This document shows, piece by piece, positions 2,394 to 64,000 of a stretch of DNA of 64,000 nt (position 1 is the first letter of the stretch; each line of letters starts with the position of its first letter). Origin of the DNA: Bimastos eiseni (taxonomy: Eukaryota > Annelida > Clitellata > Crassiclitellata > Lumbricidae); NCBI GenBank assembly GCA_959347315.1, contig OY365806.1, positions 24,008,900 through 24,072,899 of the forward strand. The letters are read 5' to 3'. A program made the translations under genes and the position numbers. Under the pieces are notes generated by a model. It saw nothing but the letters and a program-made list of their open reading frames with translations. It searched no databases and had not been told where the DNA came from.

Positions 2394-2396
2394 CTA
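2388..2396 (-). promoter_or_regulatory. Leaky gag/pol stop codon, TMV-type readthrough context
   Basis: On the minus strand the gag frame ends ATA TAG CAA TTA CCG. The pol frame continues in the same register. TAG followed by CARYYA is the established type I readthrough context first known from tobacco mosaic virus, and this site matches it exactly. I infer that Gag-Pol is made by amber suppression rather than by frameshifting. Confidence 0.8.
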
Positions 2397-5081
2397 TATG
2401 GAAGGTCGTCTTCCGGAACGACACAATTTAGCGATGTGGTTTACTCTGTTGCATGAAGTGCACTGCATCCCGAAAGCGGGACAGTCGCCTCTCCTATGTG
2501 CGGCTCCGCAGTTGGGACAAGTGTCGCGGAATCGTTGACTGTGGGTATTATCTGTGAATTCAGGTTGTTGTGCTGTATGAGTATGATAACGTTGCTGTGG
2601 TGGTGATCTATCGAATGGTTGGTAAGTTGGCTGTGGGTAGCGTTGTTGCTGAGTTGTTTGCCTACTGTATTGTTGTATTGGGGGTTGTTGGTGTTCTTGT
2701 GGGTAGTAAGGTGTGTAGGTCGAATATTCGGGTGATGGTGACGTTTCCCTAGAATGACGACCAAATGAGCGGTACGCTTGCTCAGTTGGTTGTATGTCAA
2801 AGGACACGTGTTTGTCTCGTTGGGGTGGTCTGACTGCTGCCACCTGAGGCGTAGTGATTGCCTCCAATTTGTCTTGGATATGTTTTAAGGTGTGTACAAT
2901 CTGTGAAGAGTTTTGAGGGTCTGGCCCGAGTGCAATCTCACAAATCGAAGCCGCTTCGAGAATGTCCTCAACTGATTTCGATCCGCGTTGTAAAATCGCA
3001 TGTCGGACGGTCGGGGATAGCCCGTTAAGAAGGATCATGTACGTATGATCTTTATCCAGGTGCAGCGTTTCTGCCTTCGCTAGTAAACGTGTAATAAAAT
3101 CTGCTGCGGTCTCGTCCTCGCGCTGACGGGAGTTCCACAAATCAGCTGTCACTTTCCACTGTTTTTGGTAAAGAGTGAAACGTTTAATGAACAACTCTGC
3201 CAGTTGTTCGAAAGTAGTGAAACGATTGCGATCTAACGTGGCATACCACGATGCGGCATTGCCCCGTAGGGAAAGCGCAAATGCGTCAACGCAATTTTGA
3301 GTGTCTAAGTCTTGAAAACGACACCATAACTTGAACGACCTTAGGAACGAACGCGGGCATTCATCCTTAAGTCCCTCGAAGGGGGAAGGGAGGAAAAGGC
3401 CAGACTTGACAACATGGCGTCTAGCGATGTGCGGTGTTGGAAGGGTGGGAGAGTCCCCACTTGCGGTGAGTGTGGGAGTATCCGTCACCTGTGACGTGTG
3501 AGGTGGCGGAGGGGCGTCCCTGTTCGCATCAATTGTGTGTGCAATGGGGCAAGTGGTAGCTACTTGCGTAGGATTTGGTGGATGAAGGATGTTCTTGTCC
3601 CCCTTTATCGCGTAGTAACTTGCGCCTACGACTTGCTGTGCCAACGGAGGCACTGTAAACTGTTCTTCTGAATGGTGCAGATCGTGTGGCAGTAGTGTGC
3701 GGAAGTTGCCCCCCATGACTGAACCACCCTGTTCGTACACTATTTGGGGATTCAACGATGGCGTTGGATAATAGTCCCCTACACGCTGTATGTCGTGTTG
3801 AAACGACTGTGTATGTCGTAAGGGCGCGATATAATCAGGTAGTGGTTGACTGTACTGGGGACTCCTTGACTGTACTACTGATGAATGATCACCGACGGCT
3901 GGTAGTTGTGATGACGATATGACGTAGGGATCCAATGTATGTGGCTGAGGGACTGTAGTAGGGTATGAGGGTTGATGGTATATCCGCATGGGACCCTGTT
4001 CCTTCTCTATCGATGGACAAGTTCTGTTGCTAGACGGTTGCCATAGCGACTCGCTTAAAGAAGGGTGTGGAGGGTGATGCTCGTATGTTTGTGTGTAGTT
4101 GCTATGTTCCAACTGCATCGTCCCAGGATTAGTGGAGTCCACATGTGTGGGTGCCTGTTGGGGGACGGGACAGGATGGTGCTGATGGTCGCTGATGAGTT
4201 TCGCGGAATGTGACGGTATTTGAAGATGGTGATGGGGGAAAGGGATTAAATGATGGACCGACATCTGTGGTCCGCATTAGATGAGATCGGTTATCTGAGT
4301 GTGAGTCGGTAACGCCGGTTGTGATGGGTGGAGGGGAAGGGCTGCGTTGGAGTTCCTTGCGGTTCTGCAAATTAATATGTTGGCCACAATCTGAAATTGG
4401 TGCCAGCGGTCGGGAGAATCGGGATTCCGCTGGAAGGACGATCGGTGGATTGTGGTCCACGATAGAATTAGGCCTGTTCGACTGAACGTTGGTCGGTAAA
4501 GAGAGATAATGAATAGGGGATGGCGATGCATCAATGCGGCATTCCACTGCTGTTATAATTGATGGTTCACCCGGTGTTGGGGATGTCGGCGGTTCGTGAA
4601 CAGCTGTGGGTACATTCCAGGCAGATATGTCGGGCTCTGATAGTTTCTGCTGTGAAGGTCGAGGGGGTACGGAGTGCTCGGGAATTTGGTCAGTTGTGTG
4701 TTGTGGGGAGGTAACGAAGGGAATCTGTTGCAGGTCATAATGAACAGACGGGGGTGTGGGCGAAAATAGCTCGTAATGGATGGTCGTAGGGTGGGAGGCT
4801 AACCGACCTCCTGTTGTGTGTAAATCATGATCAGACCTTCCCTCTCTGGGCGAAATGTGCGGAGGGGTCTTAGACATGAATTCTTCAAGAGGTGAATCTA
4901 AACGAGATGGATGATCAAGGCGGCGTGGTGGGCGGGGTGCAGATGATTGTAAGTTAACTTCGACAGATGATGGACCAACTATTGACTGAAGCTTGCTTCT
5001 TGTGTTATAACTAGGTCCACCATAGGAACGTACAAGTCTACTGGGATCGAAAAGAATCTTTGGTGGGGATTGGTTGGCCAT
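2394..5081 (-). CDS. gag: Gag polyprotein of LTR retrotransposon
   Basis: The ORF has 895 codons. The first ~550 residues are Pro/Ser/Thr/His-rich and low in complexity, unusually long for a gag. They are followed by a retrotransposon gag (capsid-like) domain at roughly residues 570-720, with the motif LRGNAASWY and a downstream ITRLLAKAETLHL helix. Then comes another Q/P-rich stretch and two zinc knuckles near the C-terminus: CPNCGAAHRRGDC (CX2CX3HX4C) and CTSCNRVNHIAKLC (CX2CX4HX4C). The start is the ATG at 5081-5079, the first in the frame. The frame ends at TAG 2396-2394, directly in frame with pol. Role: particle assembly and RNA packaging. Confidence 0.92.
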   Translation of the reverse strand: MANQSPPKILFDPSRLVRSYGGPSYNTRSKLQSIVGPSSVEVNLQSSAPRPPRRLDHPSRLDSPLEEFMSKTPPHISPREGRSDHDLHTTGGRLASHPTTIHYELFSPTPPSVHYDLQQIPFVTSPQHTTDQIPEHSVPPRPSQQKLSEPDISAWNVPTAVHEPPTSPTPGEPSIITAVECRIDASPSPIHYLSLPTNVQSNRPNSIVDHNPPIVLPAESRFSRPLAPISDCGQHINLQNRKELQRSPSPPPITTGVTDSHSDNRSHLMRTTDVGPSFNPFPPSPSSNTVTFRETHQRPSAPSCPVPQQAPTHVDSTNPGTMQLEHSNYTQTYEHHPPHPSLSESLWQPSSNRTCPSIEKEQGPMRIYHQPSYPTTVPQPHTLDPYVISSSQLPAVGDHSSVVQSRSPQYSQPLPDYIAPLRHTQSFQHDIQRVGDYYPTPSLNPQIVYEQGGSVMGGNFRTLLPHDLHHSEEQFTVPPLAQQVVGASYYAIKGDKNILHPPNPTQVATTCPIAHTIDANRDAPPPPHTSQVTDTPTLTASGDSPTLPTPHIARRHVVKSGLFLPSPFEGLKDECPRSFLRSFKLWCRFQDLDTQNCVDAFALSLRGNAASWYATLDRNRFTTFEQLAELFIKRFTLYQKQWKVTADLWNSRQREDETAADFITRLLAKAETLHLDKDHTYMILLNGLSPTVRHAILQRGSKSVEDILEAASICEIALGPDPQNSSQIVHTLKHIQDKLEAITTPQVAAVRPPQRDKHVSFDIQPTEQAYRSFGRHSRETSPSPEYSTYTPYYPQEHQQPPIQQYSRQTTQQQRYPQPTYQPFDRSPPQQRYHTHTAQQPEFTDNTHSQRFRDTCPNCGAAHRRGDCPAFGMQCTSCNRVNHIAKLCRSGRRPSI

Positions 5082-11220: not shown

Positions 11221-14200
11221 TTAATTCTTGTCCAAGAAAGCCTCCACCTTCTTGAAGATCTCGTCATCCGATCCATCCGCAGCGATCTGAAACAATTACC
11301 GCACAAATGATGCAAGCAGCTCGTTTTCCGATTACCAGTTGTAACTTATTCAGTATACGCTGGCCAATCTCAAATTTAAGAAATATATAGCCACGTTTAG
11401 ATTAACGAATATTGCCTTAGACATGTTGAGTTGACAAATATGAATATTGGCCCGATCCACAGATTGCCATCTAAAACCTGACCGCATCGCTTTGGATGGT
11501 ATTTGAGAATCTCCATGCAGTGTTTTTTTAACATTACATCTCGGTCGTCCTCGGCATCAGCAACTTATGCAAAATCCGAGTCAAACCCTAGCGTTGCTTA
11601 TGCAAATATATAAGAGTTTGTAAACCACATAGGCTACACATAGAAATACAGTTTAGCATGCTAACCACTATAATACTATAGCGCACCCTGACTATAAAAA
11701 CCTGTAGACTATAACTAGAATGGAAGTTAAAAACGATTAATTTTGATCGACTAATCGTCGATTAATTTTACCAATTCTATTTATTTTAGCGATTAATTGA
11801 GGCTGCCTGCTCTGCCCTGGTGGTTGTAAGAAGACAACTAAAATGAACAAATAACCACTAAATAGCAATAAATATAAATAATGCTATTAAAAGAAAAACA
11901 ACGAATAATGTTCATTTCGTATTTGGCTTTGTTTATTGTGCAATACGCTTAGTCCTAGTCACAATTAACCATTAAATCTCAAATTAAAATAAATTTAACT
12001 GTTAATCTATCATTTCTAAAGTGGTTTAGGCCTACCATTAAAATAAATTTAATTGTAAACAGCCCCAAATGATACTCAGAATAAAACGAGCGTAAAACCG
12101 TTAATGACCGTGCAGACTTTCTTGTGCTTCTCGTAGTGATCGATAACGGCCTGCGTCTGAGTATGAAAGGTCTTGATCCGTTTGGCGATGTTCTCGTTCG
12201 TCTCACCGCGCTTTAGCAGTCTCTTCTTCATCGTATCGTCAGTCGCCTTGAGGTAGATGACATGTTTGACGGCTGCAACGTCGCTCTCAAAGCGTTTGGC
12301 CTGTTCGAGTTCCGTTGGGTAGCCGTGGATGAGGAAGCCCTTGCTGCTGGAGGCTTTCTTCAGCATCGCATCGCGAAGCATTCCCAGCACGACTTCCTGG
12401 AACGCAAGATTTTCACAGCCAACACTTTGCGTTAGAGTAATTTTGAACATTTAACAACCGTTTTTTTATGAAACTGAGTTTCTAGATAGAAACTAATAAA
12501 CAATCTGTTCTTGACTTTGGTAAGTTTTGTTCCATCTTTGGCGCCGCTACAACACCACCCTTATCAAAACGAAAGTGTCAGGTTATCTTGATGTGCCGCA
12601 ATATAAATTTTCCACTACATTTGCTGCTGCAAAAATTTGTTTAAGTAAAGTCTTCCTGAAATATTAACATTAACTTGTGAACAGTTACCTTTAAACCTCA
12701 ACCCCTGAACCTCAACCTCTGAGCCTTTTAACCTCTGAACCTCAACCTCTGCACATTAACCTCTGACCCTTAACATCTGAAGCTTTAATCTTGAACCCCG
12801 CAACTTGGTTCTTCTAGACTTTGTGCAAATCTAGCAATAAATAATATAATATATATATATATATTTAAATAGACAAGTACATAAGTAAAAACAGACCGAG
12901 GAAACGAGGTCGCCTTTCTCCATGATCTTGCCCAGCTCCTTCCCTTTTGTTGAACCCGAGGCGACCTCCGCTTTGAGCATATCCCCGGTCGACAAATGCG
13001 TGAAGCCGTATTTCGCCACAATTTTCTCACACATGGCTCTTTTTCCACTTCCAGAGCCGCCTACGAAACAAAACAGTTTGCTCGTTTGATTGGCGGTTTC
13101 CCTTAATTCGGTCACTTCTCTGCGTACATGCGGGATGTCCTTCACTGGCTCCCGGTTCAGTAGCGCATTCATTAATTAGTATAGGGTCGCCCTATTGTCT
13201 GGTACTTCGTCTTGTGCAGGGCGCCTGTCTACATGTTGGGATCTATTCATATTAACTTCGACCTGCTCTGGTTGCCGATCTCTTCACTCGGCTTCCAGAG
13301 GTGACTTTTTGGTTCCACATGCGAGGCACTGCCATCCAACAGTATAGACAGAGCTTTTTCAATTGCGGGTCCCAGTGTTTGGAATAGCCTCTGAATAGTA
13401 ATCTTGAAGATGTGCTATACAAATTGCATAGATTGATTGATTGACAACAACATGATCAGTATTATAGCTCAAAACGTAATCTACTCAAAGAACAAAGGGT
13501 ACCTTTTACCCTTCTACCCTAGGACAAAGGGTAGCCAATTTGCTATACAGCGGACCAAACAAAAAGCCGGATGAGGCAGTGATGTCAACCAAAAGGGAAT
13601 CGGTTCGGAGAACGATCTCACATAGACTAGGCGCCCGAAGTGGGGTGGGTCTTAACTTCTGAGTCTCTCATATGTAAGTTCGTCCAAGGTTATTTCCGTT
13701 ACTATAACCTGGGACTTATATTAGTCTACATAAATAGTCCATTGCGTAAAATCTGACACATGCCTGCTTCTCAGGACTCTGTAAAAGCATAGTTTCTGTG
13801 TAAATACATATTACATTGCGTCTTTCAAGCCTTTAATCGTCCAAGTCTTGCATAACTTTTGAATAAAACTTTATTTCAAATCGGATCCTACATTGTCAAT
13901 CTGTCACAGCTTGGAATGTGTGAGAGAGCATGTAGGCCAACGTTTATTCTTCCCATTAGGCCTATTTTGGTTCTTTTGATAAAGTGCGTAAAACGATGTC
14001 CTTTTATCTAAATGTAGCTTAATTTCAGAGAAATTGTTGCAGTTATTTGGAAACACTTACCGAGTATAAAGTAGATCTTAGCGTGTTTCAGGTCTGCAAG
14101 TAAGTATAACTGTCATTTTAGCAAAAACCGATTAAGCAACAAAGTGGTGAACTAAAATTTACATGCAAGTTGGTTTTAATGCATTGCGGTGAATTAAAAT

Positions 14201-17602: not shown

Positions 17603-18850
17603 TTACTGCTTGTCCATGAAACCCTGTACCTTCTTGAAGAGCTCGTCAACCGTTCCCTCCGCAACAACCTGAAACAATGACCACACAAATGATGCAAGCA
17701 AATCGTTTACCAAATTATTCACTATTGCTACCCGTTTCAATGTGCATCACACGGCGCCATTTTTGGTTCTGGGCACAGACCAGACAGTGCGCACGCTAGC
17801 CAGTATCAAATGTAAGAAATATGCCACGTTAATAGTATTAAGATGACTGCTTTAGACATACTGAGTCGACAAATATGATTATTGGCCCAATCCATGGATG
17901 GCCATCCAAAGCAGACAGCTTCGCTTTGGATGGTATTTGAAATTCTCCACGCATTGTTTTTCATTACATTTCGGTAATCCTAAACTGCAGCAACGTTTAC
18001 AGAGTCTAGCCAAACTAATGTTGCTTAGTACATTTAAGCTACATAAACATCGAGATATCTACAGGTACAGTTTAGCATGCTAACCAATAGCTACAATATT
18101 ATAGCACACCACGACTGTAAATAAAACTGTAAAATAAAAAAGAACTAGGTCTGCCGAAATCAAACATAAATTTTAATTGATTAATTGCTGATAACCCTTA
18201 GCAATTAAACAATTTTCAAAGAGTATTACTGTTAGTTTTTTGTTTTTTCAAAGAGTATTACTGTTACCCTTGTGGTTGAAGGAAGACATTTGAGCTTAAA
18301 AACGTAATAAGACTACCAATATGAACAAATGAGTACAAAGCAGCCGGCTAGAAATAAATATTAACAATACTATTGAAAGATGAACAATGAATGTTCATTT
18401 TGTATTTGTTATCGCTTATTGTATAATACATCTCATTAACTACTAATTAATCAATAATTTTTAGATAATAATTCAAATAAATTAAATCGTTAACAGCCTA
18501 CATGAAATGTAAAAGAAAATGAGAGTAAAACAGTAAAGTACCGTGAAGACTTTGTGCTGTTTGTCGTAACAATCGATAACTGGTTGCGTCAGATTATGGA
18601 AGGTCTTGAGGCGTTTGACGATGGTCTCTTCGTTGTCGTTGGCGCGTCCACTCGTCTCAGCGCGCTTTAGCAGTCGCTTCTTCATCGTATCGTCATCTAC
18701 TTTGTAGTTGATGACGTATTTGATGGTTGCAACGTCATTCTCAAAGCGCTTACCCTGGCCGAGTTCCCTTGGGTAGCCGTCGATGAGGAAGCCTTTGCGT
18801 GTGGATGCCTTCTTCAGCATCGCATCACGAAGCAGTCCCAGCACGGTTTC
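17603..18850 (-). CDS. Adenylate kinase 1-like, last two exons only (copy 2), canonical active site
   Basis: The exons are 18850-18542 (103 codons) and 17668-17603 (22 codons with stop TAA). They begin and end at GT-AG sites in the same phase and alignment as exons 4 and 5 of copy 1. The encoded part has GFLIDGYPREL, RLLKRAETSGRANDNEET and a C-terminal ELFKKVQGFMDKQ, so the catalytic Asp/Arg and lid residues of AK1 are kept. It is seven codons longer than copy 1, exactly at the lid. I found no exon with the P-loop or STGD motif upstream (to the right) on the minus strand within the window up to about 32 kb. Either the 5' exons are more distant or were missed, or the copy is truncated. Confidence 0.75.
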
Positions 18851-18895
18851 CTGGTACGCAAGATTTTCAATCGGCATTACAGTAACATTGAACAA

Positions 18896-31085: not shown

Positions 31086-32025
<940 letters not shown>

Positions 32026-35600: not shown

Positions 35601-38600
35601 TGCCTTGCAGTAATAATAAAGATTTCTTGTAAAGAAACACTTTATTTTAAGCTGATGCTTAATATGTTAGGTTCTGTCTGATGAGGAAAAGAGGAAGCTT
35701 TATGATCGAGGTGGTGAAGAGGCTCTGAAGCAAAGTGGAGGCTTTCAAGATCCATTTGACTCATTCTCAAGGTTATTATTAGTTCATTGTCATTTTCCAT
35801 TTTGCTTGTGACAACTTTTGAAATGTTTACATATTTTCTGTTTCATCTTTAAGGTTATATTTAGCATTATTACATTAAGTAAATGAGGTAATTTAAACAA
35901 TGGCTGGATCCAGCATCTTGCTGCTTGTTTTGTTCATCAAATATATACTGTTCCTTGTGATATTTCTACCATTCCTTCTGAGTTCTACCTTTAGACTGCA
36001 AGGATGTCATACTTTGATTTTGTTATCTTAAACTCTGCCCCACTGGGTAATTGCAATTTTTGCATATTTCTTGTGGAATTTCGTTTTTTACTTTATAGCT
36101 TTTTTGGCGATTTTGGTTTTGGATTTGGTTCCTCAAATCAGCACGAGAGAGAAATACCGAAAGGTGGTGATGTCGTCTTAGACATTGATGTCACACTGGA
36201 AGAGCTTTACGTTGGGAATTTCATTGAGGTGGTGAGGTATAAACCAGTTGCAAAACCTGCTACAGGCACACGTAAGTGTAACTGTCGACAGGAAATGAAG
36301 ACGATTCCCCTAGGACCTGGACGCTTCCAGATGATGCAGCAGCAAGTCTGTGATGACTGTCCAAACATTAAGTAAGTTTTATCAAGATTTCTTAATCAGT
36401 GGTATAAGTTGAGCTTTCTTGCTGAATATTCTTTTGTTTTTGTGAATGTTGTTGTCTGTTATTCTATAAAAGTTAAGGTGTCAGAAGTTTTTTCAGTTGT
36501 GACCATTTATGACTTGTGCATTGTGATAATAGGGCTATGGATGTTCCAGGTAAAATGGGAATTCATTTATTCTTTTTAGTGATGTCATATGTGCTATTAC
36601 ACAGGTCTGTTATCTGAGACTGATTTTTTGTAGGAAGAGTAGCAAAATGAGTTTTGTTGCAGATCTATGTCCATTTTTTTTACCTACCCTTGCTTAGAAA
36701 TCTGTGATGATAAGTTTCATTGCTTTTTTGTGACCAGAATGGTTCCAGAAGAAAAACTGCTTGAGATCGAAATTGAATCGGGAATGAGGGATGGCCAAGA
36801 ATACCCTTTCACAGCTGAAGGTATCTGACTGTTCTCAGAAATTCTGTTTGGTTAGATGTCCGTCAGACAACTTTGTTAAGGTTTGCTGCATTCGATATGT
36901 TTATTGTTCAGTTTCTTCACATGTGCCCTGAAACAGCAACATATGAATCATGAATTCTTAGATAAAAGGAGAATGCCACTTTGTTGTTCTTCATAGGGTA
37001 GCACTAAAGTCAAATGCTTGGGGACATGGGTTATTACACACCAGTTTCTCAACAGGCTTGTACTTGCAACTATTAGATTATAAGTACAGTTTAAAATACC
37101 AGAGCATAGTTATGTCTAACAGTCATCAGAAGATTGCTTCACTAAATTTTAAGCTGAACCAAGTTAAAGTTAGTCAATTTGTGGCGAGCCGGAGATGTAC
37201 TATAACAGTGGTTCTCAATCTGTGGGTTGAGACCACCACGGGGGTCATCTTATGATTTGCTGGAGGTCAGCTCAAACCTTCAGGAATTAAAAAGCAGTTG
37301 TTAGCGTGGTTTCTTATATTTAATATTCCTGTAGGCCTACTTATGATTACTACACTAAATACAACACTATTAGCGACTAAAATAAATCTTTACTTATTAA
37401 ATTTTCTTCTACTATGATTCACGATGAAGGCAGTAGCCCAATCAATTTCATAGTTATGGTTGCTACAACTTTGGAAATAATATTTTCAGGCTTTTGCAAG
37501 ACTATAAGGGTTTAGAAATGCTATATATAAGGTTATTGCAATGCATTTTTATTTATTAGTATTAGTACCAAGCTTCATGTTCCTGGGACCAGTAGTAAAA
37601 AAAGAGGGAAAGTGTGATTCGTAAATAAAAAGAAGTATGGCAATAGGGAAAACTGCAATGAATGGATTGGAAAAGTTGTAGAAGGACAAGCAGACACAAA
37701 AAAAGGCTAGTGAGGGCAATGACCTTCCCTACAGTACTACATGGCTGCAAGACGTGGACAATGACAAAGAATATAGAGAAAAAGATCAACACATGCGAAA
37801 TGTGGATATGGAGGAAGATGCAGAGAATATCGTGGACGGAGAAAAAGACGAAGGGGTGTGCACAGAGATTCGAGTTGAGAATGATGTGGCGTTACAACAA
37901 ACTGCTTTGAGAAGGAAGCTAGGGTTCTTAGGATGTGTTATGGAATCAGATGGACTGGAAAAGGAAATGATGCTGGCGTGTGGAGAAGGAACGAAGAAAT
38001 GAGGGCAAACTAGGAAAAAATGGATGGAGGAGATTCATGAAAAAACCGGAATGAACTTGGAGGAACTATAGGACGCGACTTTCACGAACTGACAGCACAA
38101 GGTGACCAAAGTATTATGTTAATGTGCAACAAAGGTTAAACTTAATTTCCACGCTTATTTTCAGCTAGATAGTTTACTGTTTTGACATCACTGAGTTTCA
38201 TTAATACAACAATGTGTAATAAAATTGTGGTTTTAAAAGTATATTACAACTTTATTTTAAAAGATTTTACCATGTTTGTAGTTGTTCATTTTAGGTGAAC
38301 CACATATTGATGGAGAACCTGGTGACCTCAGATTTAAAATACGACAACTTAAGTATGTCTATTTTGCAATATTAATTTTATTTTTCACTTTGTTTGTAAT
38401 TGGTTACGGTTGACTTTTCTGCCACCAAGTGTCATCACAGATTTAGCCAGTGGTATAAGCTCTGCATTTCTTGCTAAAAATTCTTTTTGTGAAGTTGTTG
38501 GTTACCATTCTATCAGAAGTCGTGACAGAAGTTTTATTTACTAGAATGGATGACTTATTAATCTTGATTCTCAGTTATATTCTGTGTCAATGTATTTATG

Positions 38601-42511: not shown

Positions 42512-43009
42512 CTACGGCCTAATCATTGGTCCACGGAGATTGCTCATGTGCGGATGAGTACCAGTCTCCCGTATCAATTGACCTATGCGTAAGTCGTTCA
42601 TTCGGTGTAGTAGGCTTATGTGTTTGGTGTTGGCGTGTTGCTTTGAGGTTCTGGTCCTCTGGTGTTCAGCTGACTCTGAGTCCAGACGCTTCAACTTTCG
42701 GTCCAGTTCTGAGTTGCGACGGCGCATGGTGACATAGTCAGCAGCTGCCGAACCCGGGTTCGATTGATTGTCATCGCATGCAGACCAGCTGTCATGTTCG
42801 TGCGGCAGCTGGGAAGCTCGTTTTCCGGCGAAGTGGATGGCGTTGCACTGACACAGGTTACCGCCAAGACCTCGCAGGCACAGCTTGTGACAGTAGGTTG
42901 CCTGCTCGAAGGATGCTGTGGCGACTGCTGAGCATCTGTGCAGAAGTAGGAAGGAGAAAGCCCAGAGAAGCAACGGTCCCATCGACCGACGACCCTTCGA
43001 CGTTGGCAT
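42512..43009 (-). CDS. Candidate secreted, amidated four-cysteine neuropeptide precursor
   Basis: A single-exon ORF of 165 residues. The preferred start is the ATG at 43009-43007, because it begins a textbook signal peptide: basic MPTSKGRRSMG, hydrophobic PLLLWAFSFLLLH, and a cleavable CSAVATA. An in-frame ATG 19 codons upstream would bury it. After cleavage near residues 30-32 comes a ~29-residue peptide with cysteines at 40, 44, 53 and 55 (C-X3-C-X8-C-X-C) and the end NAIHFA. Directly after it, G62-K63-R64 is the classical amidation donor plus dibasic cleavage site. The rest (65-165) is polar and basic-rich, with RRR and KR sites but no further cysteine-containing peptide like the first. 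I know no family with this exact pattern. A TATA box lies 68 bp upstream. The function, a secreted neuropeptide or hormone, is inferred. Confidence 0.6.
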   Translation of the reverse strand: MPTSKGRRSMGPLLLWAFSFLLLHRCSAVATASFEQATYCHKLCLRGLGGNLCQCNAIHFAGKRASQLPHEHDSWSACDDNQSNPGSAAADYVTMRRRNSELDRKLKRLDSESAEHQRTRTSKQHANTKHISLLHRMNDLRIGQLIRETGTHPHMSNLRGPMIRP

Positions 43010-43076: not shown

Positions 43077-43084
43077 TATTTATA
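43077..43084 (-). promoter_or_regulatory. TATA box upstream of the peptide precursor ORF
   Basis: TATAAATA on the minus strand places a start site near 43050, about 40 bp before the ATG at 43009. AT-rich surroundings make chance occurrence possible. Confidence 0.4.
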
Positions 43085-43577
43085 TTTACTGTGGCCAACT
43101 GAACCGGAAGATCAGAGCGTCTTCTATAGTCCTATCCCAATTTCCTAATGGCACTCATTGACAAACTCTGGTAATCTTTCCAATTAGTAGGCCTCTAATT
43201 AGTGCCGCATTAAATCGATCAGGTTATTTGACAAATCAAGTCGGCATACACGATTCCTCGACAACCAAGGTATATAATGAATGATCTTAAGCATTCAGAC
43301 CGAGAACAATCCAGTATATTTATAAGACGCTTATGTCTCGATTGGCTTATGATCCCTATTAGGACCTATAGTTTTTTCGCCGCTTGAAAAATATTGAACA
43401 TGCGTCTGCTGTCCAGTCATTCATTAGACTAATTGCCTATGGATTGAAGATAGGCCGACGTTAATACTTTTGCAATACAACTGCAATTTGATACTGACCT
43501 TAAAGGTTCGGTTGAAAACGCGCACATATGACGTAGATGCAATTATAACGGTGCGCGACGGACTTGCTCAGGGTCCC

Positions 43578-57100: not shown

Positions 57101-60100
57101 CAACTCGATGATGAACTGCTTCCAGTGACACCTGTCGATGACTTCCAAATCACAGACACGCCAGGAGCGTTTGCCAGCCGCTCCAGCAATGATCCAGCAT
57201 TCTTCTGGAACTCTCCAGTTAACGATGAGTCGTCCGAATTTGAGGACAGAAACGATGCCTCGCTCTATGGAGACGTCGAGGTCAGCGATGAGCTCTCGGC
57301 TTCCGAAGTAATTCCTGACGAAAATGAGTCTCTGCTTTTCTGGAACACCCACGCCAATGATGATCCATGCAACATCCAGTTAGTTTCTCCCGACGAGCCA
57401 TCTTCCCTTCACAAGCATGCTGAACTCATGCACGATCAGCCATTCTCTGACGTCACTGACGGTACAAACGACACTCCTTTTGTCCAATTCACCGACGACG
57501 CCACACGTGGGGCCTCCGTTCCCGACAATAGCACCGCACGGGTATACTCAGCAGCCAAGCACGATAGGACAGAAATGTCTGGTGACGACGTTCAGGTGGT
57601 GGGGAGTATGAATGCGTCCCCTCTGAATAACGCATACACTGAGAATTGTAAAGATGATACCATGAAGACATTCAGCGATCAACCGTTACCTGCCAAACGG
57701 GCAACAGGATCAGAGACAATGGAGTACGATCACGCAACAATGGGCAGCAGAATTCCTCACTTGGACTCTGAGCATTTATCCACACCGAGCAACAGTTCAC
57801 AATATCAACCGATTGATTCGTGTAACCCTGCCTCAGATCATAGCTCGTTGCCCAGCGAAATCATGGGAAGATGGGAAGACAAGGTCGTTTCATCAGAGGA
57901 CAACTTCAGTCGACCAGACAATGAATCCAACAACCAACAGGTGTCTGTCCAAATGCGCGCGAACATGCCAATGCACGAGTCAGATGGAAACCACATGTTG
58001 ACAAAACGTAGTCAACCGGCGGAAAGTGTTCAAGATCAGGGGGCTGTACTTGAAGGTAAAAGTCCTGACGCTGTGTATGACAAGATATCGGACGAAATGC
58101 AGGTGTCGTCTTTACCTAGAGAAGACAACAACAGTCGAACGGAGCCAACGACGGAGGACAGCATCGCAACAACGCAGAATGATGGCGAACGGCAGGCAGA
58201 ACAAATTGCAGATGGCATATCTTCCCTTGGCACTCAGCTAGGAGTCAACTATCGCTCCAGGTCAAGACAGAGTGTGGACGGGGAAAGAGCTGCTAGAAGA
58301 AAAGAGAGCCTGATCGATGACGGTCGGAACGCTTCTCCACTGTTCAAGTGGGACTCTGGATCTGGACAGAATTCAAGTCCAAGACACTCAGCTAGTGAAG
58401 CACAATTCCGTGAATGGTCGAACAGGAGACTTCTCTCAGCCGATGACGATCGTTCCAGCCCCATGATGTACTTTCCGCGAAGATTGAACGTCGATCTTCC
58501 CTATTCGGACTCCGGATATTCCGAAACTGAAGCTGAAACGCTGAGTCCGTGCAGCTTCAGATCAAGTCTTTCACGCGCCGATACAGTGACGGGGGAAGAA
58601 GGTCGGTATGACTCCATAGCAGATGACGATAGCAGGTTCCCATTCCATATGACAGATGAGATGAGATCTTCGTGGTTCAACCTGGGACGCTCCGTGTCTG
58701 AAAAGGAATTGGTTGACTGCTTCTCGCCAGACTGTGGATTGCTAATGGGTGTGAAAGCGGAAGCTCCATGGTCCCTGGAAACTACAGACAGCAACAGCTT
58801 AGGTCTGGCAGAGGAATCTGTACAAGACGCATATCAATTAAAGGAAGAAAAATGCCTCTCCTCAGACCTAGGCAGCGTAGACACAGGCATTTTGACAGAA
58901 AAACTAGCGATGGTAACCACGAGAAATGACGAATATGCATCTACATCTCAGAGACAAGACAAAGTGGAAAGCAAGAGTGACAGCGACGCAATGATAAATT
59001 CATTAGACACTTCTGTCTCAGGATCGGAACCAACAAATGTGGCAGCCATCAGAAACGACGAATGTGCATCTATGTCTCACGGACAAGGTAAAAGGGAATT
59101 CAAGAGTGACCTCGATGCAACAATGAATTCATTAGGCACATCTGTCTCAGGATCGGAACCAACAACAGTGGCAGCCATGGACAATGTTGAATTTGCGCCA
59201 ACGTTTCAGAGACAAGGCAATTCGGAATTTAAGAGTGACAGCGATGCAACGATAGAACCAACAATGGTTGCATCCATGAGAGACGATGAATTTGCACTAA
59301 CGTCTCAGAGACAAGGCAATTCGGAATTCAAGAGTGACAGCGATGCAACGATAGAACCAACAATGGTTGCATCCATGAGAGACGATGAATTTGCACTAAC
59401 GTCTCAGAGACAAGGCACAGCGGAATTAAAGAGTGACAGCGATGCAAAGATGGAACCAACACTTGTTGCATCCATGAGAGACGATGAATTTGCACCAACG
59501 TCTCAGAAACAAGACAATTCGGAATTCAAGAGTGACAGCGATGCAAAGATGGAACCAACAATGGTTGCATCCATGAGAGACGATGAATATGCATCAACGT
59601 CTCAGAGACAAGGCACAGCGGAATTCAAGAGTGACAGTGATGCAAAGATGGAACCAACAATGGTTGCATCCATGAGAGACGATGAATTTGCACTAACGTC
59701 TCAGAGACAAGGCACAGCGGAATTAAAGAGTGACAGCGATGCAAAGATGGAACCAACACTTGTTGCATCCATGAGAGACGATGAATTTGCACCAACGTCT
59801 CAGAAACAAGACAATTCGGAATTCAAGAGTGACAGCGATGCAAAGATGGAACCAACAATGGTTGCATCCATGAGAGACGATGAATATGCATCAACGTCTC
59901 AGAGACAAGGCACAGCGGAATTCAAGAGTGACAGCGATGCAACGATAGAACCAACAATGGTTGTATCCATGAGAGACGATGAATATGCACCGACGTCTCA
60001 GAGACAAGGCAATTCGGAATTCAAGAGTGACAGCGATGCAACGATAGAACCAACAATGGTTGCATCCATGAGAGACGATGAATTTGCACTAACGTCTCAG

Positions 60101-63100
60101 AGACAAGGCACAGCGGAATTCAAGAGTGACAGCGATGCAAAGATGGAACCAACACTTGTTGCATCCATGAGAGACGATGAATTTGCACCAACGTCTCAGA
60201 AACAAGACAATTCGGAATTCAAGAGTGACAGTGATGCAAAAATGGAACCAACAATGGTTGCATCCATGAGAGACGATGAATTTACACCAACGTCTCAGAG
60301 ACAAGAGAATTCAGAATTCAAAAGTGACAGCGACGTAAAGATAGAACCAACAATGGTTGCATCCATGAGAGACGATGAATTTGCACCAACGTCTCAGAGA
60401 CAAGAGAATTCGGAATTCAAAAGTGACAGCAATGCAAAGATGGAACCAACAATGGTTGCATCCATGAGAGACGATGAATTTGCACCAACGTCTCAGAGAC
60501 AAGGTACAGCGGAATTCAAGAGTGACAGCGATGCAAAGATAGAACCAACAATGGTTGCATCCATGAGAGACGATGAATTTGCACCAACGTCTCAGAGACA
60601 AGGCAAAGCGGAATTCAAGAGTGACAGCAATGCAAAGATGGAACAAACAATGGTTGCATCCATGAGAAACGATGAATTTGCACCAACGTCTCAGAGACAA
60701 GGCACAGCGGAATTAAAGAGTGACAGCAATGCAAAGATGGAACCAACAATGGTTGCATCCATGAGAGACGATGAATTTGCACCAACGTCTCAGAGACAAG
60801 GCACAGCGGAATTCAAGAGTGACAGCAATGCAACGATAGAACCAACAATGGTTGCATCCATGAGAGACGATGTATTTTCACCAACGTTTCAGAGACAAGG
60901 CAAAGCGGAAATCAAGAGTAACAGCGATGCAAGGAAAAATTCATTCGGTCGTTCTGTGTCAGACCCTGAATCAGCTACAGTTATGCACGATCAACTTCAA
61001 TTAGAGGACGAAAATGAGCACTGGTGTAAAGCACAAGGCAGGTCAATACCAGACATGCAAACTCTGTTGGAATATGCGAAAGAAACTGTTAATACGTCCG
61101 TCGCGCATACGTCTAAAAGACAGGACTTCCCGCACAGCCTTGTCAGAGGAAGCAGCGTGGGTACATTCATCTCTGAAGAAAGAGACCTGGATGACGAGAG
61201 GTCGTTGACGGTGGAAACCAGATTGCACGATAACAGCAGTTCCGTTGACGACGACGAAGGTGCCTTGGTTAAGAAAGAAGCATCGCCAGATAAAGTCATG
61301 TTCCTTTCTCAACAAGGCAATCAAATGATAACTGAAGCAAGTATTCAATACAAGAAGCAAGCTGATGAATCACTTGTTAGTTTTGAAAGAAACGATAATC
61401 TGCCTCTAGGCAGAAATATTATTGAAGGCAAGGCATCAGAAAATTTCAAATCATCTGTGAAGATTGAAACATTGAGAGAACGTACTACCGAAGGTGCAAG
61501 CAAATGCCAGAACGATAGCGCGGTTGTGTACTCGTCAGTGGCGAAACAAACCGATCCAGTTAGATGCTACGTCGTTCCAGAAGACGAAAGAACTGATGTC
61601 TTCGATGATAAATTATCCAAGAGGGCGGATAATGTGGGTTCCGAGTTGCAGATTTCTGTGGTGAAAGAGGAGCTGGGATCCGATCAAGAGCTGTTCACCT
61701 GGCACGAATATGCCGAACTGCACTCTATTTTCAGACAGTTTCCCGATGGAGATGAACTGACACGGTTTGCTGGCGAGACCGTGGACTTGTCTTTGCTGCC
61801 ATCCACCTGGATCTGGAACGGCTCTAGATTCATGCACTACACGTCGACAGTCAACAAGGAAGGCACCATCCACTTTCCAGACCCACGTCTGTGTCGCAGC
61901 ATCAGTTGTCCAATGCAACAAGACGCGTTCACTCTGGTTGATGGCGCGCGTCTACGGCGCCATTCTCTGTTGTCAGCGCTCGAAAGACTTCAACTAAGCT
62001 GTATGGCCGAAAAGGAAGCGCTCATCGAAATCAAAGCTCTGCGAAGCAGAATTCAAGCAAGCCGTTCGCCTGCAAATGAAGACCTCGTCAAGGTCAAAGC
62101 CTTGCTAATTGAAATTCAGAAAAGCAGTCCGATTTGGGAAGAAGCACATATCCAAGCCAAAGCTCTCTTAGGAAAAATCTTGGTAAGCCTTTCACACGAG
62201 AAAGAAGAATGTAGTGCGTTGCCAAGCGAAATTCAGCAAAGCAAATTGCTAGGAGAACAGTATTTCATTGAATGCAATGCATTGCGAAGTGAACTCCAGG
62301 TCAGAGATTTATCAGAAGAGGAAGTTCTTGTTCAAGATGACATGCAAGAACATGAGATCCAGCCAAGAAAAACAGTAGAACAAGAGGATTTCATTGAATG
62401 CAGTGCGTTGCGAAGCGATCTCCAAGTCAGGAATTCATCTGAAGTGAAAGATCTTGTCCAAGACAGCACGCAAGAACAGGCGATCCAGCTAAGCAGAACG
62501 TTAGAAGAAGAAGAACAAGATTTCATTGAATGCAGTGCATCGCGAAGCGATCTAAAGGTCAGGAATTCATCTGAAGTGAAAGCAGATCTTGTCCAAGATG
62601 ACTTGCAAGAACATGAGATCCAGCCAAGAAAAACATTAGAACAAGAGGATTTCATTGAATGCAGTGCGTTGCGAAGCGATCTCCAAGTCAGGAATTCATC
62701 TGAAGTGAAAGCAGATCTTGTCCAAGATAAAATGCAAGAACATGATCTCCGGCAAAGCAGAACGTTAGAAGAAGAAGATTTCATTGAATGCAGTGCGTCG
62801 CGAAGCGAACTCCGGGTCATGAGTTCATCTGAAGTGAAAGATGGGGTGCAAAATAGAATGCAAGATCATGAGATCCAGCCAAGCAGAACGCTAGAAGAAC
62901 AAGAAGATTTCATTGAATGCAGTGCGTCGCGAAGCGATCTCACAGTCAGGAATTCATCTGAAGTGAAAGCAGATCTTGTCCAAGATAAAATGCAAGAACA
63001 TGATCTCCGGCAAAGCAGAACGTTAGAAGAAGAAGATTTCATTGAATGTAGTGCGTCGCGAAGCGATCTCACAGTCAGGAATTCATCTGAAGTGAAAGCA

Positions 63101-64000
63101 GATCTTGTCCATGATAAAATGCAAGAACATGATCTCCGGCAAAGCAGAACGTTAGAAGAAGAAGATTTCATTGAATGTAGTGCGTCGCGAAGCGAACTCC
63201 AGGTCATGAGTTCATCTGAAGTGAAAGATGGGGTTCAAAATAGAATGCAAGATCATGAGATCCAGCCAAGCAGAACGCTAGAAGAACAAGAAGATTTCAT
63301 TGAATGTAGTGCGTCGCGAAGCGATCTCACAGTCAGGAATTCATCTAAAGTGAAAGATGGTGTTCAAAATAGAATGCCTGATCATGAGCCAAACAGAACG
63401 TCAGAACAAGAAGATTTCATTGAATGCAGTGCATCGCGAAGCGATCTCCAGGTCAGGAGCTCATCTGCAGAGAAATATCTTGTCCACGATGAAATGTCGG
63501 AAAATGAGATCCAGCAATGCAGTTCATCTGAAAGCGAAAAACTTAAAGAAAGCAAAACTTGGTCAAGTGACGCTCCGATTAAAAATGATGCAGCCAGAAA
63601 ACGACCGGTTAGTCTAAGTAAACTATCGACTGACCAGAAATTCTCTACCGTTGAGCAAGGCTTCGATCACACCGGTAATGAGTCTGCTCACAGCATCAAT
63701 ACACCGTTTAGTTCTGAGACACCAGTCGCTTCATCAACAAGACATGAACAAACCGGTGAGAGAGGCCCAATAGGAGAGACCGACACTCCTTCAGAATGTC
63801 ACCGGCGACTAAAATCTCGTTCAACTTCTGATGACGATGATGTTGACGGGGCCATCGATGACGTCAGTCGTAAGCAGACGATGACTATCAGAAGCAAAAG
63901 GCCCGCCGTCGTCTGTCTGTTAACCTCCACCGCTGGTAAGAATTTATTCTCACATTATCCGTCAAGGAAATTTAAGTCAAGATTTCTTCAGCTGTCCTAT
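54104..64000 (+). CDS. Giant repeat-rich protein of unknown function, 3' incomplete
   Basis: The frame is open from 54050 to the right edge. I start it at ATG 54104 (GACATGG), giving at least 3,299 codons. I do not recognise the protein. The order of parts is: a basic N-terminal patch with KKKSRKKGFVDFFK (about residues 65-80), nine DQSR repeats (267-302), and three KPRWTKRKP motifs (713, 783, 854). An acidic region follows with repeated FFWNxxxxDE/LFWN motifs (about 1000-1090). Next are a 33-residue repeat array (about 1603-2280) and a better-conserved-looking, less repetitive segment LFTWHEYAELHSIF...DPRLCRSISCP with a helical stretch (about 2529-2670). A 41-44-residue repeat array (2720-3146) comes last. 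It is polar, Ser/Asp/Glu/Lys-rich and probably largely disordered, with no membrane segment or signal peptide. GC is higher than in the flanks, as expected of coding DNA. It may be a large cytoskeletal or scaffold protein, but that is a guess. Confidence 0.8.
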   Translation, partial: MVDADTTAAANVRDYRLQEDDNRSQLSQTSDLWETSGVRMSALCLNVLHDINDAASEYSNSDRDVSTPATKKKSRKKGFVDFFKLSTRRSKSKKNPDTSGLDSDTSKVTKDKATRKIAQHGRDSAPIPPGRKEFSHEEGKKFGRNTEATGGSDFDISANKSATLPPNTREDKQYSDFRKKTKLGTNTAKGTKRPMQRGDTMPPRTDQAADKGRRFTGPLRLLEANIQKMVSNVNRKFPSRDDRGRSIGQVKDGRKAIRDGDEQTSADQSRDQSRDQSRDQSRDQSRDQSRDQSRDQSRDQSIVSKMEEQKARNTNLDLVVRNDPRPVAEKNTAEAEQQEKYPQIGSRKESPVARRSPTASPRGRTQGKVRNNDRSRRGRSAEVPSKKGRRIRRRALSREWILVRTTTTEDTTYFGPYVKKLKHHHSPSDEPIPAKQSNNEIATKGLLSRKGLTKEVPEYRDPAQNDMNNNNDPTDILPTDDSQHWAAGFVDWLQKSGPKFPFSSSDPSPYPAATNNKATEGSFTDLNIPTELEMKTQSAEKTNMDPLSPGQAPIRNERLQKDGSNIFHITPPFSSNPASPNTQNRPIAPDSHIPAVSVVKERDTKNLCLITDTDPLSSIQKPERKEWSAEQDELEAFQTTSYFPHHPTHKHPVATESYFLAMNATPLIPDPDIDNLSPIHSTKRKEGPGDLEMEPEHSIFCGDNERLTSATNKPRWTKRKPPVRSRKESPASVYSNAAEDPMPVTICNERFPKIFSGIPAEREPFDCKLMKRNEAAQTSGPTKPRWTKRKPATRGRRQSPSRGDGDLRNASMFEAASHRSQPFFFGDAAALSGPSPFDVTATNNDDRQLSGQSKPRWTKRKPAARGKRPSQLEGDKPTYFIGDNRNESFNKTGGFLENYDFSGVGGRVPGFAEEVFVGHEPLFHEVSPMFDPVFMNVQGIDEPLFAEVSRQQIESLPLEGILLNDELTFGRYNSPVAGSSQFSADNPRNRFEQEFFWNEQLDDELLPVTPVDDFQITDTPGAFASRSSNDPAFFWNSPVNDESSEFEDRNDASLYGDVEVSDELSASEVIPDENESLLFWNTHANDDPCNIQLVSPDEPSSLHKHAELMHDQPFSDVTDGTNDTPFVQFTDDATRGASVPDNSTARVYSAAKHDRTEMSGDDVQVVGSMNASPLNNAYTENCKDDTMKTFSDQPLPAKRATGSETMEYDHATMGSRIPHLDSEHLSTPSNSSQYQPIDSCNPASDHSSLPSEIMGRWEDKVVSSEDNFSRPDNESNNQQVSVQMRANMPMHESDGNHMLTKRSQPAESVQDQGAVLEGKSPDAVYDKISDEMQVSSLPREDNNSRTEPTTEDSIATTQNDGERQAEQIADGISSLGTQLGVNYRSRSRQSVDGERAARRKESLIDDGRNASPLFKWDSGSGQNSSPRHSASEAQFREWSNRRLLSADDDRSSPMMYFPRRLNVDLPYSDSGYSETEAETLSPCSFRSSLSRADTVTGEEGRYDSIADDDSRFPFHMTDEMRSSWFNLGRSVSEKELVDCFSPDCGLLMGVKAEAPWSLETTDSNSLGLAEESVQDAYQLKEEKCLSSDLGSVDTGILTEKLAMVTTRNDEYASTSQRQDKVESKSDSDAMINSLDTSVSGSEPTNVAAIRNDECASMSHGQGKREFKSDLDATMNSLGTSVSGSEPTTVAAMDNVEFAPTFQRQGNSEFKSDSDATIEPTMVASMRDDEFALTSQRQGNSEFKSDSDATIEPTMVASMRDDEFALTSQRQGTAELKSDSDAKMEPTLVASMRDDEFAPTSQKQDNSEFKSDSDAKMEPTMVASMRDDEYASTSQRQGTAEFKSDSDAKMEPTMVASMRDDEFALTSQRQGTAELKSDSDAKMEPTLVASMRDDEFAPTSQKQDNSEFKSDSDAKMEPTMVASMRDDEYASTSQRQGTAEFKSDSDATIEPTMVVSMRDDEYAPTSQRQGNSEFKSDSDATIEPTMVASMRDDEFALTSQRQGTAEFKSDSDAKMEPTLVASMRDDEFAPTSQKQDNSEFKSDSDAKMEPTMVASMRDDEFTPTSQRQENSEFKSDSDVKIEPTMVASMRDDEFAPTSQRQENSEFKSDSNAKMEPTMVASMRDDEFAPTSQRQGTAEFKSDSDAKIEPTMVASMRDDEFAPTSQRQGKAEFKSDSNAKMEQTMVASMRNDEFAPTSQRQGTAELKSDSNAKMEPTMVASMRDDEFAPTSQRQGTAEFKSDSNATIEPTMVASMRDDVFSPTFQRQGKAEIKSNSDARKNSFGRSVSDPESATVMHDQLQLEDENEHWCKAQGRSIPDMQTLLEYAKETVNTSVAHTSKRQDFPHSLVRGSSVGTFISEERDLDDERSLTVETRLHDNSSSVDDDEGALVKKEASPDKVMFLSQQGNQMITEASIQYKKQADESLVSFERNDNLPLGRNIIEGKASENFKSSVKIETLRERTTEGASKCQNDSAVVYSSVAKQTDPVRCYVVPEDERTDVFDDKLSKRADNVGSELQISVVKEELGSDQELFTWHEYAELHSIFRQFPDGDELTRFAGETVDLSLLPSTWIWNGSRFMHYTSTVNKEGTIHFPDPRLCRSISCPMQQDAFTLVDGARLRRHSLLSALERLQLSCMAEKEALIEIKALRSRIQASRSPANEDLVKVKALLIEIQKSSPIWEEAHIQAKALLGKILVSLSHEKEECSALPSEIQQSKLLGEQYFIECNALRSELQVRDLSEEEVLVQDDMQEHEIQPRKTVEQEDFIECSALRSDLQVRNSSEVKDLVQDSTQEQAIQLSRTLEEEEQDFIECSASRSDLKVRNSSEVKADLVQDDLQEHEIQPRKTLEQEDFIECSALRSDLQVRNSSEVKADLVQDKMQEHDLRQSRTLEEEDFIECSASRSELRVMSSSEVKDGVQNRMQDHEIQPSRTLEEQEDFIECSASRSDLTVRNSSEVKADLVQDKMQEHDLRQSRTLEEEDFIECSASRSDLTVRNSSEVKADLVHDKMQEHDLRQSRTLEEEDFIECSASRSELQVMSSSEVKDGVQNRMQDHEIQPSRTLEEQEDFIECSASRSDLTVRNSSKVKDGVQNRMPDHEPNRTSEQEDFIECSASRSDLQVRSSSAEKYLVHDEMSENEIQQCSSSESEKLKESKTWSSDAPIKNDAARKRPVSLSKLSTDQKFSTVEQGFDHTGNESAHSINTPFSSETPVASSTRHEQTGERGPIGETDTPSECHRRLKSRSTSDDDDVDGAIDDVSRKQTMTIRSKRPAVVCLLTSTAGKNLFSHYPSRKFKSRFLQLSY
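54902..55009 (+). repeat. 12-bp coding repeat (GATCAAAGCAGA), nine copies
   Basis: Encodes (DQSR)9. The only internal variation is CAA/CAG. The frame is kept because the unit is 12 bp. Confidence 0.97.
58910..60945 (+). repeat. 99-bp coding repeat array, 17 regular plus 3 longer degenerate units
   Basis: Each regular unit starts with ATGGTTGCATCCATGAGAGA (MVASMRDDEF), continues with a TSQRQG/TSQKQD segment and then EFKSDSDA(K/T)(M/I)EPT, 33 codons in all. Regular starts are at 59264 + 99k, k = 0-16, with no indels. Three older units precede them, with an extra NSLGTSVSGSEPT stretch in the first two. Two adjacent 297-bp trimers starting at 59363 and 59660 are nearly identical. Confidence 0.97.
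62261..63540 (+). repeat. ~123-132-bp coding repeat array, about 10 copies
   Basis: Each unit contains TTCATTGAATGCAGTGCG (FIECSA), RSDL or RSEL, NSSEVK, then Q(E/D)HE/DL and an E-rich end. Unit lengths vary in multiples of three between about 41 and 44 codons. It lies in the same reading frame as the 99-bp array but is unrelated in sequence. Confidence 0.95.

Follow-up and report, generated by a model that had tools for sequence, protein, structure and literature searches.

The precursor frame and its parts

We examined an open reading frame on the minus strand of the window (the whole stretch of 64,000 nucleotides that was analysed). The frame (43009-42512) is intact and comprises 165 codons and a stop codon; it lies exactly where the initial annotation had proposed a precursor of a four-cysteine peptide. 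The features of the locus are the following.

42512-43009, minus strand: predicted HFAamide-type neuropeptide precursor, one uninterrupted coding frame of 165 aa plus stop
42914-43009, minus strand: likely signal peptide, residues 1-32, MPTSKGRRSMGPLLLWAFSFLLLHRCSAVATA, read by eye
42827-42913, minus strand: predicted mature peptide, residues 33-61, SFEQATYCHKLCLRGLGGNLCQCNAIHFA-NH2, four cysteines, from sequence comparison
42818-42826, minus strand: GKR, predicted amide donor glycine and dibasic convertase site, kept in 24 of 24 sequences
42515-42817, minus strand: polar, divergent C-terminal remainder, residues 65-165, from alignment
43077-43084, minus strand: possible TATA box TATAAATA, motif match only, with the ATG 68 bases downstream

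SFEQATYCHKLCLRGLGGNLCQCNAIHFA-GKR stands directly after MPTSKGRRSMGPLLLWAFSFLLLHRCSAVATA and is followed by a polar tail of 101 residues. The signal peptide was called by eye from a hydrophobic run and a small-residue site, with predicted cleavage between A-T-A and S, and the four cysteines of the peptide (C40, C44, C53, and C55) are spaced C-x3-C-x8-C-x-C. The architecture described earlier (a signal peptide read by eye, a single four-cysteine peptide, a GKR amidation and cleavage site, and a polar tail) holds. Upstream of the ATG the frame remains open as far as 43075. M1 is the likely start codon of the precursor, since the database relatives P0001 and P0002 start at the same place and the second candidate in the window protein, M10, has no methionine counterpart in P0001. 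The TATA candidate is weak because the window holds 11 copies of TATAAATA where chance would give 3.4, one of them a second copy upstream of the same gene (43317-43324). Rfam (gathering thresholds) and ARAGORN gave no match in the window.

ATG-initiated ORFs of at least 165 codons are expected 0.07 times per 64 kb on one strand under a first-order Markov model of whole-window composition, and 0.18 times per 20 kb on one strand when the composition of the local 600 bases is used. The length of the ORF is modest evidence for a gene.

Two Pfam matches of the precursor, TRAPP14_N (E 0.00074) and Swi5 (E 0.0019), lie under their cut-offs and were rejected as chance; in a scan of 22 members of the family they were matched by three proteins and one protein, respectively, with best E-values of 0.00025 and 0.0019 (the cut-offs were given for the window protein only). 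The single NCBIfam match, MreC, was also rejected (E 0.17, 10.9 bits versus a cut-off of 243). A PDB search with the core alone gave no match up to E 10, and the core profile gave two matches, a CO dehydrogenase chain (E 0.24) and a scorpion toxin chain (E 1.3).

Other features of the window and genome

The Pfam scan took in seven other frames of the window besides the precursor. Two minus-strand frames resemble adenylate kinase (ADK) exons (12076-12450 and 18482-18877; E 2.1e-20 and 6.6e-24, above the Pfam cut-off) and may represent tandem genes or a duplication of adenylate kinase exons. A minus-strand frame of 895 codons (2394-5081) carries a Retrotrans_gag domain (E 8.6e-10) and is a retroelement gag gene, and the frame at 36028-36372 matched no Pfam family. 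At 31086-32023 the tetranucleotide TCAC is repeated about 234 times with 99% match, and the open frame there reads as a THSL repeat; this ORF is likely spurious. Two tandem arrays, 59155-60932 and 62262-63522, have periods of 99 and 129, multiples of three, and inside them minus-strand frames stay open for 122 to 177 codons. These arrays may be coding repeats in one of the two orientations.

On the mitochondrial contig C118 (15,339 bases, of which the first 10,000 were taken in), COX1 reads cleanly under code 5: AGA and AGG encode Ser, and AAA was judged to fit Lys. Pfam placed nad4L, nad4, nad1, nad3, a nad2-like frame, cox2, and cox3 in this order on one strand, with cox1 before cox2, an order that presumably agrees with that of annelids. 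Together with the annelid origin of the two relatives that carry a species name (below), this makes the genome probably annelid. An echinoderm origin, which the repeats had suggested, was rejected on the judged reading of AAA as Lys and on this one-stranded gene order. Six cox1 copies were found off the mitochondrial contig (C15, C16, two on C6, C5, and C4), each covering the full Pfam model and with TGA as the only in-frame 'stops'; they represent either artefacts of the assembly or mitochondrial DNA that was recently inserted into the nuclear genome.

Relatives and conservation of the core

Residues 25-66 of the window protein were used as query against 5.77 billion proteins and retrieved P0001-P0004 (E 4.4e-17 to 9.5e-10). 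With L003, a paralog from the same genome, five additional proteins were found (P0006-P0010), and P0010 as query gave thirteen proteins, P0010 itself among them, of which P0011-P0022 were new. The three protein searches yielded 21 distinct database relatives in total. Only three of them carry any name: P0021 has the nr name 'HFAamide [Urechis unicinctus]', P0011 is a hypothetical protein of Lamellibrachia satsuma, and P0018 is called simply 'hypothetical protein'; the remaining 18 of 21 are nameless. Both named source organisms are annelids. The given models of P0003 and P0004 have no clear signal peptide by eye. P0012 (211 aa, source jgi) carries the core twice in a row, with a GKR after each copy; the number of peptides per precursor is thus not always one in this family.

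The comparison set consisted of 24 sequences: the window protein, its paralogs L002 and L003, and the 21 database proteins, with 25 cores in all as P0012 has two. The pattern C-x3-C-x8-C-x-C-x6-GKR is kept in 24 of 24 sequences and in all 25 cores, that of P0021 included, and the residues before the glycine of GKR are HFA, HFV, or HFT throughout the family. The motif C-x3-C-x8-C-x-C plus HF[AVT]-GKR was derived from these 24 sequences and not from any paper. Across the 24 rows, the invariant columns are C40, C44, G47, G49, G50, N51, C53, C55, A57, H59, F60, G62, K63, and R64.

P0001 and P0002 can be aligned across almost the full precursor, with an overall identity to the window protein of 62% each (alignment A1). 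Identity is distributed unevenly along the precursor. In the stretch S33-R64 (32 residues, GKR included), 30 of 32 residues are identical to each of the two (94%), compared to 21/32 and 24/31 in the signal region (66 and 77%) and 50/92 and 43/91 in the tail (54 and 47%) for P0001 and P0002, respectively. For the other 21 sequences, identity to the window protein was 17-25 of 32 residues in S33-R64 (53-78%) and 14-40% in the tail. In all 23 comparisons the peptide stretch was more alike than either the tail or the signal region. Judged from the alignment, this is a prohormone-like pattern, with selection on the peptide and the processing site and a drifting spacer.

The initial annotation had regarded the frame as a possible chance ORF in case the cysteines and GKR were conserved in no relative; 24 of 24 sequences keep both. 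This count is partly so by construction because the relatives were found through that very core, and the E-values are free of such bias. We concluded from sequence conservation, which decides the question, that the earlier observation is correct and the frame is not a chance ORF, because relatives were found at E 4.4e-17 to 9.5e-10, two paralogs are open, and the cysteines and GKR are present in 24 of 24 sequences.

Assignment to the HFAamide family

In a single pairwise comparison, the window protein and P0021 were identical at 23 of 37 positions (E 5e-16). We hold with high confidence that the core of the window frame matches the HFAamide family and that the frame encodes a predicted secreted prohormone of one 29-residue, C-terminally amidated peptide with probably two disulfides, SFEQATYCHKLCLRGLGGNLCQCNAIHFA-NH2. 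The neuropeptide-precursor reading of the initial annotation is well supported by the architecture together with a core that matches HFAamide proteins. Its description of the peptide as a previously unseen type was wrong, given the match of the core to P0021 and the fact that HFAa/HFAamide is a published lophotrochozoan family. By its sequence, the window gene is a new, somewhat divergent member of the known HFAamide family.

HFAa was listed as a lophotrochozoan family in a work on Platynereis in 2013 (PMC3890597), and nemerteans, brachiopods, and phoronids are also reported to have HFAamide (PMC8557429). In the oyster, Cragi-HFAamide is expressed mainly at larval stages, with a much lower level in mantle (PMC8398477), and the in situ signal of Platynereis HFAa was reported only in 3-day-old and not in 2-day-old larvae (PMC5747525). 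Text searches returned no paper with GGNLC plus neuropeptide or with HFAGKR, and 'HFA' is absent from the main text of PMC7737342 (Urechis neuropeptides); the published sequences presumably are in figures or supplements. The letter-level link to HFAamide rests on the P0021 record for this reason.

Additional copies in the genome and the RGLGG form

The genome search covered 660 Mb in 118 contigs; the best candidates were scored, so the copy numbers given here are lower bounds. At least two further open members are present in the same genome, L002 (E 1.6e-11) on the contig of the window and L003 (E 8.6e-8) on a different contig, each with a hydrophobic start and a small-residue site (signal read by eye), the core, and GKR. 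A fourth HFAamide-like place, L011 (E 0.037; G000:C10:16203429-16203494, L011 1440-1600), has Ser at the second cysteine and a core divided over two frames, and for these reasons it is probably a decayed paralog.

The tree of the 25 cores was built on 34 columns and leaves 14 of its 17 inner branches open. A branch with support 99/100 separates the window protein and P0001, P0002, P0003, and P0004 (5 of 25 cores) from the rest, although the joining of P0004 to this group is a possible long-branch artefact according to a warning of the tree program. This group has RGLGG and C-Q-C, compared to WGRGG and C-K-C in the commonest form of the family. The core of L002 is the same as that of P0020, and L003 falls in a second supported group (96/93). 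The three open copies differ in core form, and the genome therefore contains at least three distinct forms.

We tentatively consider, as a rather unlikely possibility, that annelids have three distinct HFAamide hormones. The RGLGG form would then be an independent ligand with a dedicated receptor and dedicated cell types, and a lophotrochozoan peptide system would be divided in a way not recognised so far. The receptor would perhaps be an orphan lophotrochozoan GPCR, such as the trissin-receptor orthologs.

Predicted processing and action

The steps proposed here derive from the architecture and from general knowledge of prohormones. The signal peptide would direct the precursor into the secretory pathway, where signal peptidase likely cleaves between ATA and S and the four cysteines likely form two disulfides. 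A prohormone convertase would then cleave after GKR, a carboxypeptidase would trim KR, and PAM would convert the exposed glycine to the C-terminal amide; the tail may serve as a weakly constrained spacer. The genome holds Cu2_monooxygen exons above cut-off, a family which includes PAM. Dopamine beta-hydroxylase-like enzymes belong to Cu2_monooxygen as well, and the exons are therefore support rather than proof of PAM. The AlphaFold model of the full precursor was poor (mean pLDDT 63). For the lone 32-residue core the best model was a hairpin of low trust, and values for the five models spread between 82 and 57.

The peptide is likely released by neurosecretory cells and may act on a receptor, probably a GPCR. 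We know of no receptor for HFAamide. Many lophotrochozoan peptides are without a receptor and several lophotrochozoan GPCRs are without a ligand, among them orthologs of the trissin, kisspeptin, ETH, QRFamide, and proctolin receptors; the section on such orphans does not name HFAamide (PMC8557429). A pairing of HFAamide with these orphan receptors is speculation.

Alternative readings

The proposal of a new neuropeptide class, amidated, with four cysteines and without known relatives, draws on the RGLGG form, which differs from the commonest form by three core changes (W to R, R to L, and K to Q), all three common to the window protein and only 4 of the 23 other sequences. Since the cysteine spacing, GGN-x-C-x-C, A-x-HF, and GKR are nevertheless the same in the P0021 HFAamide and in the paralogs of the same genome, we regard a new class as extremely improbable. 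Still less credible, and the least probable of the readings considered, is an ambulacrarian or chordate-like precursor of the orexin/allatotropin type. It would account for an amidated, cysteine-rich peptide directly after the signal peptide and for the C-x-C pair, but orexin-type peptides of echinoderms and hemichordates carry six cysteines, and in eleutherozoans the first two stand side by side. The mitochondrial code and gene order of this genome were judged unlike those of echinoderms, and orexin appears in no name among the 21 relatives, though only P0011, P0018, and P0021 are named at all. The cysteine spacing of vertebrate OX-A differs from that of the window peptide. Ambulacrarian orexin-type peptides are described with six cysteines in passages of PMC9793003, PMC4772807, and PMC6586643, the first two being adjacent or one residue apart; the window peptide has four, the first two three residues apart. 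The resemblance to orexin-A pointed out in the initial annotation thus fails on cysteine number and spacing. The faint likeness to bombesin suggested there comes down to a few shared letters: the HFAamide family has four conserved cysteines, and the residues that precede the glycine are HFA, HFV, or HFT. Bombesin/GRP-type peptides are cysteine-free, with an amidated tail resembling W-A-x-G-H-x-M, and this type was rejected by composition, as the window peptide has four cysteines, no Trp, and an HFA end. We concluded that the likeness of the window peptide to orexin and bombesin is due to chance.

One could also argue for a secreted defensive or venom-like peptide, stabilised by cysteines and with a reduced CS-alpha-beta core, in place of a neuropeptide: the C-x3-C and C-x-C pairs form the inner half of the CS-alpha-beta pattern, and the second of the two PDB matches of the core profile, the scorpion toxin chain, is a CS-alpha-beta peptide, but its E-value of 1.3 is far too weak to count. 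No PDB match lies below E 0.2, however, and no Pfam family is above cut-off for the window protein; the best model of the lone peptide is a hairpin rather than a helix plus strand, with low trust, and the models are too poor to decide. The amidation signal and the mapping of Platynereis HFAa in larvae in a neuropeptide expression survey favour signalling, and we consider the defensive reading very unlikely. About equally improbable is a decaying duplicate, no longer used and left among repeats. Copies do appear to decay in this genome, as L011 looks broken, but the window copy is open, and identity to P0001 and P0002 of 30 of 32 residues in the peptide versus about half in the tail points to selection on the peptide. 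The window copy is very likely a working gene of known kind, an HFAamide precursor.

Comparison with known peptide systems

The finding does not stand as the discovery of a new peptide type. The genome shows a little-studied family of lophotrochozoan peptides at whole-genome scale, with at least three open genes and one broken-looking copy, and reveals an RGLGG sub-form common to the window protein and four database proteins. The three natural variants of one scaffold might be a useful ligand panel for deorphanising lophotrochozoan GPCRs.

Endothelin and CS-alpha-beta peptides, like the window peptide, carry a C-x3-C and a C-x-C pair within one short peptide, but show no significant sequence or profile match to it; the two pairs are in opposite order in endothelin, and CS-alpha-beta peptides carry additional cysteines. 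The orexin-type peptides (vertebrate OX-A and ambulacrarian OX) share with the window a disulfide-rich amidated peptide after the signal peptide and a C-x-C pair, whereas the number and spacing of their cysteines are different, with six in ambulacrarians. HFAamide, for which P0021 was compared, has the same hydrophobic start, one four-cysteine peptide right after it with C-x3-C-x8-C-x-C spacing, GGN-x-C-x-C-x-A-x-HFA, GKR, and a divergent polar tail. The window peptide differs from it by RGLGG for WGRGG, FEQ for FEY, Gln for Lys between the last two cysteines, and Ile for Val before HFA, and its gene is one of at least three open copies in its own genome.
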